NCBI GenBank assembly: GCA_003248075.1
Contig: QJYK01000282.1
Span: 1 to 37,335 of the forward strand
Reading direction: 5' to 3'
DNA from: Gemmatimonadota bacterium
GTDB lineage: Bacteria > Gemmatimonadota > Gemmatimonadetes > Longimicrobiales > Gaopeijiaceae
Length of the DNA: 37,335 bases
Below, piece after piece: positions 28,746 through 37,335 of the stretch. How positions within the stretch are numbered: position 1 is the stretch's first letter; every line of letters starts with the position of its first letter. The notes under the pieces are model-generated. The model did no database searches and had not been told where the DNA came from. It saw nothing but the letters and a program-made list of their open reading frames with translations. The translations under genes were made by a program, and so were the position numbers.

Positions 28746-29144
28746 TCATCGACAGCCGGCCGATTCCGAGGGCTGGGAGGCGATCTGGAGCTCGAGCCGG
28801 TCGCCCGGGTCGACCCTGAGGCGCTCCGTGTAGCAGCGGTCCCCCGCCAGGAGGTCGAACTCGAGTCGGAGGTCTTCAGACATGGTCCAGGGCAGGACGA
28901 AGACCTCCTCGCGCTTTCCGATGACGACCCCGAGGCGCCGGCGCCGTCCGTCCTGGATTAGGGCCCAGACCGTGGCGTCACTGAAGTTCAGGTTGATGAC
29001 GCGGATCTCGATCTCCATGCGCTCGGCGGGGTCCTGGCTGAACGGGTTGGGCGATCCGGACCCGGAACCGCTCGCGCAGGCGGTCGCCAGGACGGCCAAG
29101 GCGACCGTGCCCCATGCGTTCACTCGGGGGTTCCTGTTTCCCAT
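28746..29144 (-). CDS. Small lipoprotein, second of a tandem paralogous pair
   Basis: A 132-residue protein. The lipobox TACA places the lipidated Cys at about residue 23. A Gly/Ser-rich linker follows, then one beta-rich domain of about 85 residues starting ERMEIEIRVINLNFSDATVWAL and ending RLRVDPGDRLELQIAS. Every block has a counterpart in the gene upstream (see 29169-29570). The family is unknown to me. The ATG at 29144 has GGAGAG five bases upstream, and the gap to the upstream stop is 24 bases, so they form one operon. The gene is convergent with the TPR gene and ends at the shared hairpin. Confidence 0.8.
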   Translation of the reverse strand: MGNRNPRVNAWGTVALAVLATACASGSGSGSPNPFSQDPAERMEIEIRVINLNFSDATVWALIQDGRRRRLGVVIGKREEVFVLPWTMSEDLRLEFDLLAGDRCYTERLRVDPGDRLELQIASQPSESAGCR

Positions 29145-29168: not shown

Positions 29169-29570
29169 TCAGGTTTTCCCGGAGATGCACAGCGAGGCGT
29201 AGAGCTCCGTAGGGATGCGAACCCACACGCGGTCACCGGGATCCACGTGCATGGGGCGGACCGAGCACGACCCTCCTCCGACGAGGTGGATCTCGAATTC
29301 GAGAGGGACGGAGAAGCTCCACCTGAGGGTGAAATCCTTGTCCGACTTTCCCGTCACCTCCCCGAGGCGCACGCGCTCCCCGCCGCGTACCGCATGGACC
29401 GTCGCGTCGTTGAAGTTCTGGTTCTCCACCCTGATGCGGATGCGCTCCTGTGTGCGACTTCCGCCGGCGAACGGGCTCCGTGCCTCGCTGCGGCCGAAGC
29501 AGCCGGCCACGGACGACGCGAGCAGCGCGGCCAGCAAGACACGGGCGAGGGAACGGACGGGTACGCTCAC
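29169..29570 (-). CDS. Small lipoprotein, first of a tandem paralogous pair
   Basis: A 133-residue protein. The signal ends in the lipobox VAGC with Cys24. The domain runs from ERIRIRVENQNFNDATVHAV through LGEVTGKSDKDFTLRW and LEFEIHLVGGGSC to MHVDPGDRVWVRIPTE. The shared pattern NxNFxDATVxA...RLGxVxGK...LEFxxxxxGxxC...VDPGDRxxxxI with the downstream gene shows tandem duplication. It is probably exposed in the periplasm or on the outer membrane. The start is a GTG at 29570 with a near-ideal AGGAG seven bases before it. A -10-like TATTGT lies at 29600-29605 on the same strand. Confidence 0.82.
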   Translation of the reverse strand: MSVPVRSLARVLLAALLASSVAGCFGRSEARSPFAGGSRTQERIRIRVENQNFNDATVHAVRGGERVRLGEVTGKSDKDFTLRWSFSVPLEFEIHLVGGGSCSVRPMHVDPGDRVWVRIPTELYASLCISGKT

Positions 29571-32046: not shown

Positions 32047-32664
32047 TCAGCCTGCCGGATCCGCGTCCGACAGCTCCGACAACGCTGCCAGGATGTCGTC
32101 GTTGGTCGGACGGATCTTGTAGTTGATCTCGATGAACTTCCAGCGCACCACGCCCTGGCGGTCGATGACGAAGACCGTCGGGTGGGGGATCGGTCGGGCC
32201 TGGGGGTCGTGTTGGTTCAGCAACCCGTAGCGCGCGATCACCGCGTGGTCCGGGTCGGAGATGAGTGGGAAGTCCAGCACACGCCCGTCCTGCTGGGCTA
32301 CCCGCTCGATCATCATGCCCTGGTGCTCGCGATCGTCGATGGACAACGCGAGGATCTCGGTCCGTTCGCGCTGTGCCGGCGTCAGGAGGTCTCTCAGCTC
32401 ACCGAGCTGACTCGCGCACCACGGTCACCAATGGCCTCGATAGAAAACGAGCACCACGTCCTTGTGGCCGCGGAACTGGGAAAGGCGGACGATGCCGTCC
32501 CCATAGGACCGCAGCGCGAAATCCGGCGCCACGTCGCCCAGCGTGACTCGCCCGGTATCGACGGGGGGGAGGTCCCGTCCGTCCATGGGTCCGAGGCGAC
32601 CCTCGGCGCCACACGCGGCCGAGGCGAGCACGGTGGCCAAGACCAGGCCGCGGATCGAGATCAC
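32047..32664 (-). CDS. Redoxin (AhpC/TSA superfamily) selenoprotein with Sec-Pro-Trp-Cys site
   Basis: The frame from the GTG at 32664 to the stop at 32047 encodes 205 residues if the TGA at 32425-32427 (codon 80) is read as selenocysteine. A signal-like N-terminus has a possible lipobox Cys18 (ASAAC). The thioredoxin-fold region begins VAPDFALRSYGDG; then FYRGHW-U-PWCASQLGELRDL, where relatives have FYRGHWCPxC. All later blocks are intact: LALSIDD, FPLISDPDHAVIARYGL, PHPTVFVIDRQGVVRWKF. So Sec80 and Cys83 form a UxxC pair. In PrxQ-like alignment Cys83 is the peroxidatic position and Sec80 the partner. Its GTG overlaps the matB stop (GTGA), with GGGAG upstream. A C-to-A mutation or sequencing error would give the same TGA, but the hairpin and intact frame argue otherwise. 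Confidence 0.85.
32394..32410 (-). promoter_or_regulatory. Bacterial SECIS-like hairpin after the TGA
   Basis: On the minus strand TCAGCTC pairs perfectly with GAGCTGA around a GGT loop. The loop begins 21 bases after the TGA, inside the 16-37 base range reported for bacterial SECIS elements, and its first base is G, as those elements require. GGT nearer the TGA can also pair with ACC beyond the hairpin to lengthen the structure with internal loops. Confidence 0.7.
32425..32427 (-). other. In-frame TGA predicted to encode selenocysteine
   Basis: The TGA is codon 80 of the redoxin gene and takes the place of the first Cys of the CPxC motif. It is the only in-frame stop between the start at 32664 and the true stop at 32047. 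It is followed by CCG TGG TGC, so the site reads U-P-W-C. Confidence 0.82.
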
Positions 32665-34163
32665 GGCATGTCTCCCGAAAAGAGGTCGCGAACGCGTGGC
32701 TTCTGCACCTTGCCCATGGCGTTCCGCGGGAAGTCGCCCACCACGAGGAACCGCCGCGGGAGCTTGTACGACGAGAGCCGGTCGACGGCCCACGTGCGCA
32801 GGTCGTCCAGGTCCAGGCCCCCGGGGGCGTCGGAGGTGACCGCCGCCGCGACCACCTCCCCCCACGTCTCGTCCGGCAGTCCCACCACCGCGCAGTCGCG
32901 CACCGCGGGATGCTGACGAAGGACGTCCTCAATCTCCAGCGCGGACAACTTGTAGCCGCCCGACTTGATGATGTCCACCGAGAGGCGCCCGAGGATGCGG
33001 TAGTAGCCGTCCTCGAGCACCGCCATGTCACCGGTGCGGAACCAGCCGTCGACGAAGGAAGCCTCCGTCACGTCGGGTCGTCGCCAGTATTCGCGGAAGA
33101 CCCCGGGACCCCGGACCTGGATCTCGCCCGGCCGTCCCTCGCCCGCGACGACGGTCCCGCCTTCGTCGACCAGTCGGATCTCGACGCCGGGAAGCGGACG
33201 TCCCACCGCGCCGGGGCGGCGCTCGCCGACGAGCGGATTCGAGAGGCCCATGCCGATCTCGGTCATCCCGTAGCGCTCGAGCAGCCGCTGCCCGGTGAGC
33301 CGCGTCCAGGTCTCGTGGACTGCGGCCGGCAATGCTGCGGAGCCGGAGACCATGAGGCGCATGGACCGAAAGCCCTCGGCCACCCGTTCCCTGCGCGCGG
33401 GCTCCATGGCCTCAAGGGCCCGGATGAGCTTGACGTAGATCGTGGGGACGGCCATGAACACCGAATACGCGCCGTCCGCGACACGGTCGAGGGTCGCGTC
33501 GAGATCGAAGGCGGGGAACGTCTCGACGGTCGCTCCCGACCACAGGGCGCAGCTGAGCACGTTCACGATACCGTGCACGTGATGCAGGGGCAGGAAGAGG
33601 GGGATGCGATCGTCGGAGCGCCATCCCCATGCGTCCACGAGGGTGGCGATCTGTGATCGGATCGTGGCGTGGGTCGACACGACCCCTTTGGGTCGGCTGG
33701 TGGTGCCGCTCGTATAGAGAATCATGGCCCGCCGGTCCTCGGACACGACGGGGAGTGGGGCGGCGGGTGCGGCGAGCGCACCTCCGACGTCGCGCAGCGG
33801 GACGCCCAGGCGTGCGCACAGAGGCTCCAGGCGCGGCCTCAGCGCCGCGGGGGCGAGCGCGGCGGTGACGTCGGCGTCGGTGAGCACGTGCTCGAGCTCG
33901 GGCTCGGTCGCCGCGGTGCTCAGGGGAACCGCGACGCCACCCGCGCGCCAGACGCCCCATTGGACCGTGACGTACGCGAAGCTCCCCGGCACCAGGAACG
34001 CGACCCGTGCCTCGCCGAGATCGCTGACTCCCCCCAACAGGGAGGAGCCCAAGGCCGCCGACGCCTCGAGCAGCTCCGCGTACGTGTACGCGCGACCCCC
34101 GTCGACGACGGCCACCGCCTCGGCATGTCCGGAGGCCCGTCGGATCAGCTCGATGCCGCTCAT
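32661..34163 (-). CDS. matB: Malonyl-CoA synthetase-like AMP-binding acyl-CoA ligase
   Basis: A 500-residue ANL-superfamily ligase. The P-loop is YTSGTTSRPKG (150-160), the A5 motif is ERYGMTEIGMGLSNP (about 296-310), the A8 hinge is GRLSVDIIKSGGYKLS and the catalytic lysine is Lys485 in NAMGKVQK. The ERYGMTEIGM.LSNP string is characteristic of MatB and ACSF3 malonyl-CoA synthetases. It would convert malonate, CoA and ATP to malonyl-CoA, AMP and pyrophosphate in the cytosol. It lies 13 bases downstream of madM, which supports malonate as substrate. Its stop overlaps the redoxin start. Assignment to malonate rather than methylmalonate is inferred from the transporter. Confidence 0.88.
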   Translation of the reverse strand: MSGIELIRRASGHAEAVAVVDGGRAYTYAELLEASAALGSSLLGGVSDLGEARVAFLVPGSFAYVTVQWGVWRAGGVAVPLSTAATEPELEHVLTDADVTAALAPAALRPRLEPLCARLGVPLRDVGGALAAPAAPLPVVSEDRRAMILYTSGTTSRPKGVVSTHATIRSQIATLVDAWGWRSDDRIPLFLPLHHVHGIVNVLSCALWSGATVETFPAFDLDATLDRVADGAYSVFMAVPTIYVKLIRALEAMEPARRERVAEGFRSMRLMVSGSAALPAAVHETWTRLTGQRLLERYGMTEIGMGLSNPLVGERRPGAVGRPLPGVEIRLVDEGGTVVAGEGRPGEIQVRGPGVFREYWRRPDVTEASFVDGWFRTGDMAVLEDGYYRILGRLSVDIIKSGGYKLSALEIEDVLRQHPAVRDCAVVGLPDETWGEVVAAAVTSDAPGGLDLDDLRTWAVDRLSSYKLPRRFLVVGDFPRNAMGKVQKPRVRDLFSGDMP

Positions 34164-34176
34164 ATCCCGTGGCGCC

Positions 34177-34950
34177 TCATCCGAAGAGGGCCCGCACGGT
34201 GACGAAGACGATCGACGGTCCGAGCAGGCACCCGAGTCCCGTATAGAAGGTGGCGGTCATCGCGCCATAGGGGACCAGCTCCGGATCAGTGGCTGCGAGT
34301 CCCCCGGCCACGCCGCTGGTCGTGCCCATCAGGCCTCCGTACACCATCGCGGAGCGAGGGTTGTCGAGGCCGATCGGCCGGGCGACGAACGGCGTGGCGG
34401 TCATGACCAGCATCGATTTGACCAACCCCGCGGCGATGCTGAGCGCGATGACCTCGGAGGAGGCACCGATCGCCGTGCCGGTGACCGGACCCACGATGTA
34501 CGTCGCCGCCCCGGCGCCGAGCGTGGTCATGCTGACCGGGTCCCGATAGCCGAACCCCCAGGCCACCGCGGCGCCGACCGCGAAGGAGGCCAGCACGCCC
34601 ACCAGGAGTGAGACCATCGCGCCGACCCCCGCCTTCCGGATCTCGTCGATGCTGACCCCGAACGCGGTGGCCACGATCGCCAGGTCGCGGATCATCGCAC
34701 CACCCATGAGGCCGACTCCCGCGAGGATCGGCACGTCCGCCAGCCCCTGGGTTCCTCCCGTGACCGTGCCCCCGACCCAGGCGAGCACGAGCCCGGTCAG
34801 GATAGCGATCGCGGACCCGTGGATCCGGCCCCCCGTGAGTCGATCCGAGACCACATAGGAGAGCCAGACGACCAAGCCCACGAACGTGAAGGCGCTCACC
34901 AGCCCGTTTCGCACGAAAACGTCGGAGAGGGTCTCCCACAGGGTGCTCAC
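34177..34950 (-). CDS. madM: Malonate transporter subunit MadM
   Basis: A 257-residue, highly hydrophobic protein with about eight or more membrane helices, matching MadM of the MadLM sodium:malonate symporter in length and motifs (FVGLVVWLSYVVSDRLTGGRIHGSAIAILTGL; LGAGAATYIVGPVTGTAIGASSEVIALSIAAG; YGGLMGTTSGVAGGLAATDPELVPYGAM). It works with MadL in the inner membrane to import malonate. The start is a GTG at 34950 with GGGAGAGGGAG upstream, and the sequence GTGA makes a 4-base overlap with the madL stop, so the two are translationally coupled. Longer upstream reading in this frame would overlap madL and is rejected. Confidence 0.92.
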   Translation of the reverse strand: MSTLWETLSDVFVRNGLVSAFTFVGLVVWLSYVVSDRLTGGRIHGSAIAILTGLVLAWVGGTVTGGTQGLADVPILAGVGLMGGAMIRDLAIVATAFGVSIDEIRKAGVGAMVSLLVGVLASFAVGAAVAWGFGYRDPVSMTTLGAGAATYIVGPVTGTAIGASSEVIALSIAAGLVKSMLVMTATPFVARPIGLDNPRSAMVYGGLMGTTSGVAGGLAATDPELVPYGAMTATFYTGLGCLLGPSIVFVTVRALFG

Positions 34951-35372
34951 GCTCCCTCTCCCGGTCCGTCGGGGTCCCGCTGCGGCGCTCCCACCCGGCT
35001 CAACGGAGGCACCAGGACGAAGCCGAGCATGACGGCGAGCACGCCGGCGAGGATCGCGGCCGGCCCTCCCGCGAGGGCTGCGACCACGTTCTGCTTGGCG
35101 GCCATGGCGACCACGACCGGGATGTAGATGGCGCTCCAGAAGAGCACGCCTCGCTCCGTGACCGGGCTCAGGCGCCCGCGCTTCCGGAGTCCGTCCGAGA
35201 GCAGGATCATGAGCAGCATCGCGATGCCGACGCCGCCCACGTTCGCCTGGACTCCGATCAGCTGGCCGATCACGTCTCCGACGAACAGCCCCGCGAGCAG
35301 GCAGCCGCACAGGAAGGCGACCCCGTAGATGACCACGGCCGACTCCGGAAGGGGTGGAAGCGTGGCAGCCAT
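34947..35372 (-). CDS. madL: Malonate transporter subunit MadL
   Basis: A 141-residue membrane protein with about four helices. The motif IYGVAFLCGCLLAGLFVGDVIGQLIGVQANVGGVGIAMLLMILLSDGLRKRG followed by GVLFWSAIYIPVVVAMAAKQNVVAAL is the signature of MadL. The length fits the family. It forms the small subunit of the MadLM symporter. The ATG at 35372 begins the operon madL-madM-matB-redoxin. The stop overlaps the GTG of madM. The C-terminus (RDPDGPGEGA) is soluble. No clear promoter is seen in the 89 bases upstream. Confidence 0.92.
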   Translation of the reverse strand: MAATLPPLPESAVVIYGVAFLCGCLLAGLFVGDVIGQLIGVQANVGGVGIAMLLMILLSDGLRKRGRLSPVTERGVLFWSAIYIPVVVAMAAKQNVVAALAGGPAAILAGVLAVMLGFVLVPPLSRVGAPQRDPDGPGEGA

Positions 35373-35461: not shown

Positions 35462-36052
35462 CTACGGGGCGTACAGCACGTCGTACAGGACCAGACCGCG
35501 ATGGACCGCCTGCGCGACCACCCCGGCCATGTAGTGCGGCATCTCCCCCAGATCCGCGGAGGTCAGTGCCGCCACCGCTGTCCGGGGATCGTCCCCCGGA
35601 CGCAATCCCCCGAAGCCGCGCATGAGTCCACTCCGCAGCGCGGCGAGCACCCACGGCTTGGTCTCCACCGTGGCCTTGGTGACGACCGCTTCACGGAGGC
35701 CGCCCTCGGGCGTCATCGAGAGTCCCACCTCGACGGGTCCGTGCTGGTTGTTGACCTGTGCGAAGAAGGTCACCCCCACCAGGTCGCCGTTGGCATCCTC
35801 ACCCAGGTAGAACTTGAATTCTTCCTCATCGGGCTCGAACCCACCCTCGGCGCGGATCCGGTCGAAATCGAATCGGCCCACGTTGACGGTGCGTACGAAA
35901 AACTGGCGTGCCCCGGGCATCGATGCGCGGATGACGTCTGCTTGCTTCTGCAGGACGACGGTCGGGGTGATGTGCCTCGGGACGGCTCCCACGAGGACGA
36001 GAAGCGCCGTTCCGGCCGAGAAGGCCGCCGGGAAGATGCGATTTCCCTTCAT
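35462..36052 (-). CDS. Exported FMN_bind-like protein
   Basis: A 196-residue protein with an N-terminal hydrophobic segment (about residues 7-24), probably a signal anchor. The rest resembles the FMN_bind domain of RnfG/NqrC-like proteins in layout: a start with QADVIRASMPGARQFF, the central strand pair GDLVGVTFFAQVNNQHGPVEVGLSMTPEGGLREAVV, then a C-terminal helix after LTSADLGEMPHYMAG. The canonical SGATxT flavinylation motif is absent, so covalent FMN is doubtful. The ATG at 36052 overlaps the stop of the upstream membrane-protein gene (ATGA). Family assignment is tentative. Confidence 0.6.
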   Translation of the reverse strand: MKGNRIFPAAFSAGTALLVLVGAVPRHITPTVVLQKQADVIRASMPGARQFFVRTVNVGRFDFDRIRAEGGFEPDEEEFKFYLGEDANGDLVGVTFFAQVNNQHGPVEVGLSMTPEGGLREAVVTKATVETKPWVLAALRSGLMRGFGGLRPGDDPRTAVAALTSADLGEMPHYMAGVVAQAVHRGLVLYDVLYAP

Positions 36053-36615
36053 TGCTCCACTCCTGCAGTCGAGGTGGCGGTCGGGATCGCGGCCCTCAGC
36101 ACGCCCAGGAAGACCGCGACGTACGCTGCGGCCATGAGCCAACCGGAGCCGATCGTGAGCCATGCGAAGCCGGGGAAGCCGGCCTTCATCAGCCACTGTC
36201 CCGAGAAGTCCAGGGCACCCGAGCCGAATGCGCCGACGATGACGGTGTTGCGCCAGGTCGCGCTCCAATCCAGGCCCAGCACCAGGAGCGTCTGCAGCGC
36301 CGCCACGATGGCGTAGATCATGATGTGGATGTGGCTGTCCTGGATCAGCAGTGCGGTGTCCACTCGATGTGATTCGCCGGACATCGAGCCCAGGTCCAGG
36401 GGCTGGGTGGAGCTCTGGCTCGCGTCGGGCAGCGCGTCCATACGCATCGACTCTCGCGGCGCGTAGGTCGCGCTGACCTGGGCGGGCGTCAGGCCCGCCC
36501 AATCCCTGACCATGAGGAATGCGAATACGTACGCGTAGCCGAGCAGGGCCATGAACAACACGGCGGCGAGGCGCACCGACGGGTCGGTGGCACGCAGGCG
36601 GTACAGACCGTTCAT
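36049..36615 (-). CDS. Membrane protein of unknown function, four predicted helices
   Basis: A 188-residue protein. The first helix (about residues 14-36) is followed by a roughly 55-residue hydrophilic loop rich in Ser, Met and Asp. Helix two starts just after DSHIHIMIYAIV (about 93-115), with helix three near 122-138 and helix four near 150-175. The two His in SHIHIM at the edge of helix two are candidate heme or metal ligands, but nothing proves this. I do not recognise the family. It overlaps the FMN_bind-like gene by four bases and follows the beta-barrel gene by 8 bases, so all three are probably one operon working across the cell envelope. Confidence 0.75.
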   Translation of the reverse strand: MNGLYRLRATDPSVRLAAVLFMALLGYAYVFAFLMVRDWAGLTPAQVSATYAPRESMRMDALPDASQSSTQPLDLGSMSGESHRVDTALLIQDSHIHIMIYAIVAALQTLLVLGLDWSATWRNTVIVGAFGSGALDFSGQWLMKAGFPGFAWLTIGSGWLMAAAYVAVFLGVLRAAIPTATSTAGVEQ

Positions 36616-36623
36616 TCCGGCTC

Positions 36624-37335
36624 CTAGAAGGTGGTCACGAGTTGGATCACGTAGCGGACGGCCGACGCATGGAACCCGTCCGAGTCCTCGTATATCGGCA
36701 CGGACGAGTGATCCAGGCGCGCTTCGGCGCGGAGCTGGAAGCGGGGGATCCGGAAGGTCGTGTGCTCCACGTTCGCGAAAATCCCCTCCTGACCCACACC
36801 GACGAAGACGGTGGGGCTGAACGTCAGCGAACGGAGCGTCTGCGACGTGCCCGTGCGCGCCCCGTCGCGGTCGCGGAAGGTCTCACCCCGGATCGTGGCG
36901 CCCAGATTGCGCCCGAGTCGACGGAATATCGTGATCGTGGCTCCCGACCAGCGCGCGTCACCGCCATTCTCCAGCACGCCGCGGTCGCCACCGAGGTTGA
37001 GCTCGCCGGCGAGGATCCAGTTGTGTTCGGGCTCCCACGCGTAGTCCACGGAGAGGAGGAATCGGTCGTGGACGTCCCCGGCCTCGCCCTCGCCGCCCAG
37101 CAGGCCGCTCACTCCCAGACTCGAGGACTCGGTCGGGATGAGCCCGAGGCGTAGGCCTCCCGTCTTCGCGTGGTTCTCGTCCATCTGGGCGTCCCAGCCG
37201 TTCCCGGCGATGCCCGTGATGTCGACCCTGGGCGTGACGGACCAGCGCCCCACGATGCCGACCATCTTGGCGGGTCGAGCGAGCTCGAAGTTGAAGCTCG
37301 ATGATGCCTGGAAGTTGAGCGGCTCGTCGTCCCGC
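36624..37335 (-). CDS. Outer-membrane beta-barrel protein, 5' end outside window
   Basis: The frame is open from the window edge to the stop at 36624; the visible part is 236 residues. It consists of alternating hydrophobic strands (for example LRLGLIPTESSSLGVSGLLGG, FLLSVDYAWEPEHNWILAGEL, TITIFRRLGRNLGATIRGE, VGQEGIFANVEHTTF) and ends in Phe (VIQLVTTF), as for proteins inserted by the Bam machinery. The beginning of the visible part (EPLNFQASSSFNFELARPAKM) shows the gene continues upstream. It looks like a porin-like barrel of 8 or more strands visible. It heads the group with the membrane protein and FMN_bind-like protein. An ATG at 37265 is internal. Confidence 0.8.
   Translation of the reverse strand, partial: RDDEPLNFQASSSFNFELARPAKMVGIVGRWSVTPRVDITGIAGNGWDAQMDENHAKTGGLRLGLIPTESSSLGVSGLLGGEGEAGDVHDRFLLSVDYAWEPEHNWILAGELNLGGDRGVLENGGDARWSGATITIFRRLGRNLGATIRGETFRDRDGARTGTSQTLRSLTFSPTVFVGVGQEGIFANVEHTTFRIPRFQLRAEARLDHSSVPIYEDSDGFHASAVRYVIQLVTTF

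Follow-up and report, generated by a model that had tools for sequence, protein, structure and literature searches.

To our knowledge, the entry of copper through the outer membrane and its handling in the periplasm are poorly understood beyond a few Pseudomonadota. CutF-like genes have been delimited by a set of rules, namely a small protein with a Sec signal peptide, a CxxxC motif and two adjacent prolines within the 15 C-terminal residues, a gene following in the same orientation at no more than 1000 nucleotides (nt), and no Pfam domain; according to excerpts of this report, most of the Cys-bearing members are situated upstream of copper-homeostasis genes (PMC9973294). The cruR(bp2923)-bfrG-bp2921 operon of Bordetella pertussis responds to copper, and CruR is described in the available part of the respective paper as heading an operon for an outer-membrane transporter and a protein with four transmembrane (TM) helices (PMC9426467). 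Here we analyse a set of genes at the end of contig QJYK01000282.1 of a Gemmatimonadota bacterium (assembly GCA_003248075.1; the whole stretch of 37,335 nt is called the window). It consists of the genes for an outer-membrane barrel, a four-helix (4TM) membrane protein and an FMN_bind-like protein, together termed the trio, and of a short leader open reading frame (ORF) located upstream on another contig of the same genome.

In the best reading of the data this operon is a paralogue of an ApbE-associated flavinylated electron-transfer cassette found in the same phylum. We give an even chance to the more specific proposal that the four genes form a metal-responsive, most likely copper-responsive, envelope operon, consisting of a CutF-like leader, a BBP2 barrel, a 4TM protein with an HxH motif and a protein with the FMN_bind fold but without covalent flavin. 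The system may thus be an undescribed way to handle copper in the cell envelope.

Layout and conservation of the gene set

An earlier note on this DNA had proposed a three-gene operon spanning the envelope. On the minus strand of the window the three ORFs are indeed tightly spaced: 8 bases lie between the stop codon of the barrel gene and the start of the membrane-protein gene, and the TGA of the latter and the start codon of the FMN_bind-like gene overlap as ATGA. The barrel gene is interrupted by the end of the window contig. Its 5' end is supplied by contig C322, in which the last 144 bases of the window contig are found identically, and the start used here is L004:590 (minus strand, contig C322). 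In a genome of the same genus (G323) the complete gene set is present on one contig (locus L098). The features are as follows.

35462..36052, minus strand: RnfG/NqrC-fold (FMN_bind-like) protein, predicted to be exported or anchored by its N-terminus, lacking the flavinylation motif, with invariant H27 and H104 (AlphaFold2, VIA, alignment)
36049..36615, minus strand: four-helix inner-membrane protein with HxH (H95, H97) and a long loop between TM1 and TM2 (AlphaFold2, alignment)
36624..37335, minus strand: 3' part of the outer-membrane beta-barrel gene (BBP2/OmpL-like, Pfam PF07642), 5' end on contig C322
L004:703-1059 (contig C322), minus strand: exported-looking Cys/His leader ORF with TTG start, 118 amino acids, CGLRC motif and SPPPRT tail

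The barrel belongs to the BBP2 porins, as it matched PF07642 with 71.1 bits (gathering cut-off 26.2, E 1.3e-19); the barrel of a relative (L041) reached 88.3 bits. Together with the four predicted helices of the second protein and the predicted RnfG/NqrC fold of the third, this match bears out the proposed span across the envelope.

Conservation was counted among Gemmatimonadota genomes, and the loci were sorted by our own reading into type A, the type of the window, and type B, the paralogous type with ApbE. The membrane protein as query gave matches in 29 of 298 genomes. With an alignment as query (A1), matches were obtained in 38 of 395 genomes, of which 28 contain type A, 13 type B and seven both; G025, G051, G268 and G365 showed divergent or fragmentary matches only. 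In all 28 type A genomes the genes for the barrel, the membrane protein and the FMN_bind-like protein lie side by side, with the barrel homologue immediately preceding the membrane-protein gene; a contig end truncates the third gene in G267. The trio, for which the earlier note had asked whether it is conserved, was thus not found split up in any relative among the genomes examined. Within the window's own family (f1) type A is confined to the genus of the window (G000, G323). In many f4 genomes two gene families adjoin the trio, F6 and F3, which we read as isocitrate-dehydrogenase-like and aminopeptidase-like, respectively; neither was found beside the trio in the window or in L035, L037, L038, L039, L049 and L050. 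Since the neighbours vary between groups, the operon seems to hold together as a unit, and we regard the trio as a conserved operon with virtual certainty. For occurrence outside the Gemmatimonadota the analysis covered one close-relative scan of contigs (3 loci). The open-licence PubMed Central literature, judged mostly from listings, yielded no publication about either the trio or the 4TM/ApbE cassette.

The trio proteins and the paralogous ApbE cassette

The third protein was modelled with AlphaFold2 from 23 alignment rows, with a predicted local distance difference test score (pLDDT) of 91.5. Comparison of the model by VIA gave RnfG (9eri_G) as best match, with Z 12.5, a root-mean-square deviation of 2.7 and 144 aligned residues, and Z 10.7 for NqrC (4xhf_C). 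The top 16 rows were all RnfG or NqrC (Z 12.5 to 8.9), followed by IscU-type proteins at Z 8.1 and under, and the best Foldseek match was NqrC (E 4.6e-4). From the predicted structure we assign the FMN_bind (RnfG/NqrC) fold with great confidence, in agreement with the identity given in the earlier note. At the sequence level neither the window protein nor its L041 relative matched PF04205, the window protein scored 14.8 bits against the NCBIfam model rnfG_Methano (cut-off 230), and a sequence search of the PDB yielded a weak RnfG match (E 0.019). A profile-profile comparison of the two FMN-type alignments was collinear but fell short of significance (probability 2.9%, E 0.016); the fold was settled by the fold search.

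The flavinylation motif [ST]GA[ST], whose absence from the window protein had been pointed out before, is missing from all 23 aligned type A proteins, and the type A protein very probably carries no covalent flavin. As the motif is general in RnfG/NqrC, its loss is taken to be the derived state. The invariant residues include H27, H104, G105, P106, E108, T125, A127, T128, E130 and W134, with H27 and H104 present in 23 of 23 sequences. By a crude pattern, H27 is situated 0-3 residues past the nearest small-residue cleavage-like site in each of the 23, and many of the N-termini are short enough for membrane anchors.

The AlphaFold2 model of the 4TM protein (pLDDT 85.4) shows long helices at residues 12-40, 87-113, 119-144 and 148-176. 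Its SHIHIM sequence had drawn attention for lying at a helix edge; the two histidines of this HxH (H95, H97) proved invariant throughout the 32 proteins aligned (25 type A and seven type B), 8-10 residues into predicted helix 2, and in our reading the hydrophobic stretch of this helix starts at about the HxH. Judged from the charges, we read the long TM1-TM2 loop as extracytoplasmic. This loop is longer in type A than in type B and contains MxM or MxxM in 21 of 25 type A proteins versus none of seven type B proteins; an additional histidine is found in the loop of 24 of the 25 type A proteins.

No Pfam or NCBIfam family was matched over its cut-off by the membrane protein, so that a clear assignment to an unrelated known family was not obtained. 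NapH, MsrQ, PepSY, DsbD, Rnf/Nqr and DUF4405 gave no Pfam match at E 1 with the window protein, L041 or L055, FezC being outside this comparison. A PDB sequence search with the 4TM alignment returned nothing, the best Foldseek match of the model in the PDB had E 0.77, and tblastn of two 4TM relatives against plasmids gave no match. Identification by fold with VIA was discarded, as mostly helical bundles were retrieved at Z 8.3 or less, which is under the meaningful level of the tool for helical models. Two haem-copper oxidases in this list (Z 5.8 and 5.7) are within the noise for such models and were not used.

The membrane protein is related to that of the type B cassette. In a tree of the membrane proteins, rooted at the midpoint for drawing only, types A and B are split by one branch with a support of 100/100. 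Type B comprises a barrel, an FMN_bind protein with an SGAT-type motif, an HxH 4TM protein and ApbE, and was complete in 13 of 13 loci from 13 genomes (L053-L062, L103-L105). In L055, for instance, ApbE matched PF02424 (1.1e-58) and the FMN_bind protein PF04205 (2.1e-9). All ten aligned type B FMN_bind proteins carry [ST]GA[ST]. No ApbE gene was found in the type A stretches of 21 genomes (about 7 to 16 kilobases each). In the window genome type B was not matched. This genome has two ApbE genes, both away from the trio, and a single FMN_bind match, which falls in L094, in our reading an Rnf-like operon. The HxH 4TM protein of type B is a candidate for a new membrane component of flavinylated electron transfer, by which the list of flavinylation-associated systems would be extended.

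Three divergent loci were also noticed. By our reading the gene order of L096 is the same as in type B, L097:678-3762 is an ApbE-type locus in which two 4TM-like proteins flank FMN_bind, and L099:53-2745 is one in which FMN_bind is fused to a 4TM-like stretch.

The leader ORF and the proposed link to copper

Inspection of the genes upstream of the window, as recommended in the earlier note, revealed a short ORF before the barrel gene in 28 of 28 type A loci. It has a hydrophobic stretch near the N terminus, carries a Cys/His motif and ends in a Pro-Pro tail. Since the filter for such leaders was built after they had been seen, the counts are descriptive and not a test. It was passed by 25 of 25 loci and by two of three further ones; in the last (G138) the leader was recognised by eye and has a weaker tail. 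None of the 13 type B loci (0/10 and 0/3), none of the three divergent loci and none of 1094 control stretches of 700 nt passed, barrel-upstream regions being excluded from the controls; with these regions included, 11 of 1210 stretches did. The gap between leader and barrel is 34-146 nt in 24 of 25 loci and 262 nt in L035, where the start is uncertain. In the window genome it amounts to 112 nt to the barrel start used, and this leader agrees at the level of sequence with the rules for CutF-like genes (PMC9973294), its signal peptide being judged from hydropathy only.

We consider it probable that the leader is a metal-responsive CutF-like element. Its presence points to the sensing of a metal, most likely copper, and copper appears fairly probable in preference to another metal. 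A copper-responsive operon is the best reading because known Cys-bearing CutF-like leaders mostly precede copper-homeostasis genes, because the CruR operon responds to copper and because type A has His and Met features of its own. Residues of the kind that bind metals also speak for it, namely the invariant HxH and the loop Met and His of the 4TM protein and the invariant H27 and H104 of the third protein. According to the proposed mechanism, the nascent leader would bind copper via its Cys/His motif and pause on the Pro-Pro tail, thereby controlling how the barrel gene and those following it are expressed. The barrel would admit copper or a copper ligand across the outer membrane, and the RnfG-fold protein and the His/Met-bearing 4TM protein would bind or reduce the copper and pass it onward.

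Several observations weigh against this proposal. CxxxC is present in ten of 25 leaders, the other 15 having CxC with HH. None of the leaders searched (eight in one search, four in another) matched a Pfam or NCBIfam family over its cut-off, DUF2946 included, and the TM1-TM2 loop of the window protein has fewer Met than that of many relatives. For a stem-loop that hides the ribosome-binding site of the following gene, a further mark of CutF-like leaders (PMC9973294), the evidence from RNA is weak: folding z-scores of 24 loci ranged from -3.66 to +1.03, the leader end was the best-pairing window in just five of 24 loci, and pairing of the leader end with the ribosome-binding region of the barrel gene was modestly stronger than in swapped pairings (p 0.024, and p 0.005 after one start codon had been moved, kinship being uncontrolled in both cases). 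The copper enzyme NosZ is not enriched, being encoded in seven of 28 type A genomes as against 126 of 390 overall, and the responsive metal could be another than copper.

A link to NosZ over all carriers was accordingly dropped as unsupported; within the subgroup to which the window belongs, all six genomes (G000, G323, G209, G221, G008, G049) have NosZ. DUF2946 (PF11162) was likewise absent from the matches of eight leaders at a maximum E of 10, a setting at which most hits with E over about 0.1 are already removed by the HMMER filters, and the leader of the window genome had no Pfam match at E 10.

The main rival to the copper proposal is electron transfer with a non-covalent cofactor, which we hold to be unlikely though worth weighing. 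The trio would then form a chain without covalent flavin, in which the 4TM protein serves as a small cytochrome or oxidises quinol, with HxH as haem ligands, perhaps in a dimer, the RnfG-fold protein binds flavin mononucleotide non-covalently or another redox cofactor, the barrel leads to an extracellular acceptor and copper only regulates. An electron-transfer or transport system had already been guessed at in the earlier note. A related membrane protein stands beside ApbE and a motif-bearing FMN_bind protein (10/10) in the paralogous cassette, which makes a redox ancestry likely. Excerpts on apbE clusters, in which DUF4405 is given as a haem-binding membrane protein and FezC as a related cytochrome of ferrosomes, which may form a dimer to bind haem, also fit such a chain (PMC11334425). 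In the window's version, however, the site for covalent flavin is lost and no ApbE gene lies nearby. Furthermore, the invariant histidines are on a single helix with a spacing of two residues, close to the edge of the membrane in our reading, and hidden Markov model (HMM) searches gave no match to DUF4405 or the other listed membrane electron carriers, with FezC outside the comparison and the haem-copper oxidases within the noise.

The same parts might instead answer an excess of copper, keeping it from the cytoplasm or moving it outward. Such a detoxification role appears improbable to us: no RND (resistance-nodulation-division) pump, P-type ATPase or multicopper oxidase was recognised in the conserved set, of whose neighbours not all were family-searched, and we know of no export route made up of one barrel that lacks a periplasmic adaptor. 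In its favour, RND efflux genes or a copper oxidase come after many of the CutF-like leaders that bear Cys, according to excerpts of the respective report (PMC9973294). Whether the system serves uptake or delivery rather than detoxification we judge to be roughly balanced; uptake or delivery is favoured because no pump or ATPase was recognised and because the leader CruR heads the operon of an outer-membrane transporter. Similarly improbable is that the small upstream gene merely encodes a periplasmic metal-binding protein and that the trio amounts to a common porin and its accessory proteins, unrelated to metals. The lack of a Pfam match of the leaders over cut-off and the weak RNA evidence would suit this explanation, but a leader with Cys/His motif and Pro-Pro tail, mostly at a short distance from the barrel, accompanies the trio in 28 of 28 loci and is absent from the paralogous cassette.

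Going beyond the copper-responsive operon, the genes could represent a novel class of systems that acquire copper or act on its redox state and span both membranes. The scaffold of the flavinylated cassette would have been re-used, with covalent flavin and ApbE dropped, copper ligands gained and a CutF-like sensor in control. The candidate ligands would be the HxH and the Met/His loop of the 4TM protein and, in the RnfG-fold protein, the invariant histidine 0-3 residues past the cleavage-like site, which may be compared with amino-terminal copper sites. We put this forward tentatively and regard it, ligands included, as rather doubtful. The compact set of leader, barrel, 4TM and RnfG-fold protein, which shares some of its genomes with a flavin-type paralogue, would allow the conversion of a flavin electron carrier into a metal handler to be tested.

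Neighbouring genes and comparison with known systems

Downstream of the trio and on the same strand, genes for the malonate transporter subunits MadL and MadM are situated at 34177-35372 (minus), followed at 32661-34163 (minus) by an ORF that we read as AMP-binding and acyl-CoA-synthetase-like. The redoxin-like gene at 32047-32643 (minus) contains an in-frame TGA (32427-32425), giving FYRGHW-U-PWC, and a match to tRNA-Sec in the window genome scored 67.8 bits (cut-off 47); this gene likely encodes a UxxC selenoprotein. At 28746-29144 and 29169-29570 (minus) two small exported-looking paralogues lie in tandem, 38% identical and with NxNFxDATV and VDPGDR in common. Upstream of the leader, at L004:1193-2593 (plus, contig C322), a divergent gene was read as flavin-monooxygenase-like.

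Compared with the available part of the description of cruR-bfrG-bp2921 (PMC9426467), in which BfrG is TonB-dependent and bp2921 is a PepSY_TM protein, the present operon has a BBP2 barrel and a membrane protein without family; an RnfG-fold protein is added, and the leaders are without a DUF2946 match. It differs from the CutF system of Rhodobacter capsulatus, as far as excerpts of that report describe it (PMC9973294), in that the gene after the leader is no multicopper oxidase; a stem-loop is not established here, and the likeness of the leaders is drawn from sequence alone. With RnfG/NqrC the third protein shares the predicted fold (Z 12.5 to 8.9), whereas it lacks [ST]GA[ST] and a Pfam match and has the invariant H27 and H104. 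Type B resembles the ApbE-flavinylated clusters in the excerpts of Meheust et al. 2021 (PMC8238504) and PMC11334425 in having ApbE and a motif-bearing FMN_bind protein, and its 4TM protein holds the place of their membrane component (PMC8238504). By HMM, the HxH 4TM protein fits none of the membrane classes named in the available parts of these papers (PMC8238504, PMC11334425), and type A, unlike those clusters, has neither ApbE in the cluster nor the motif. Each ingredient of the operon has a known relative.
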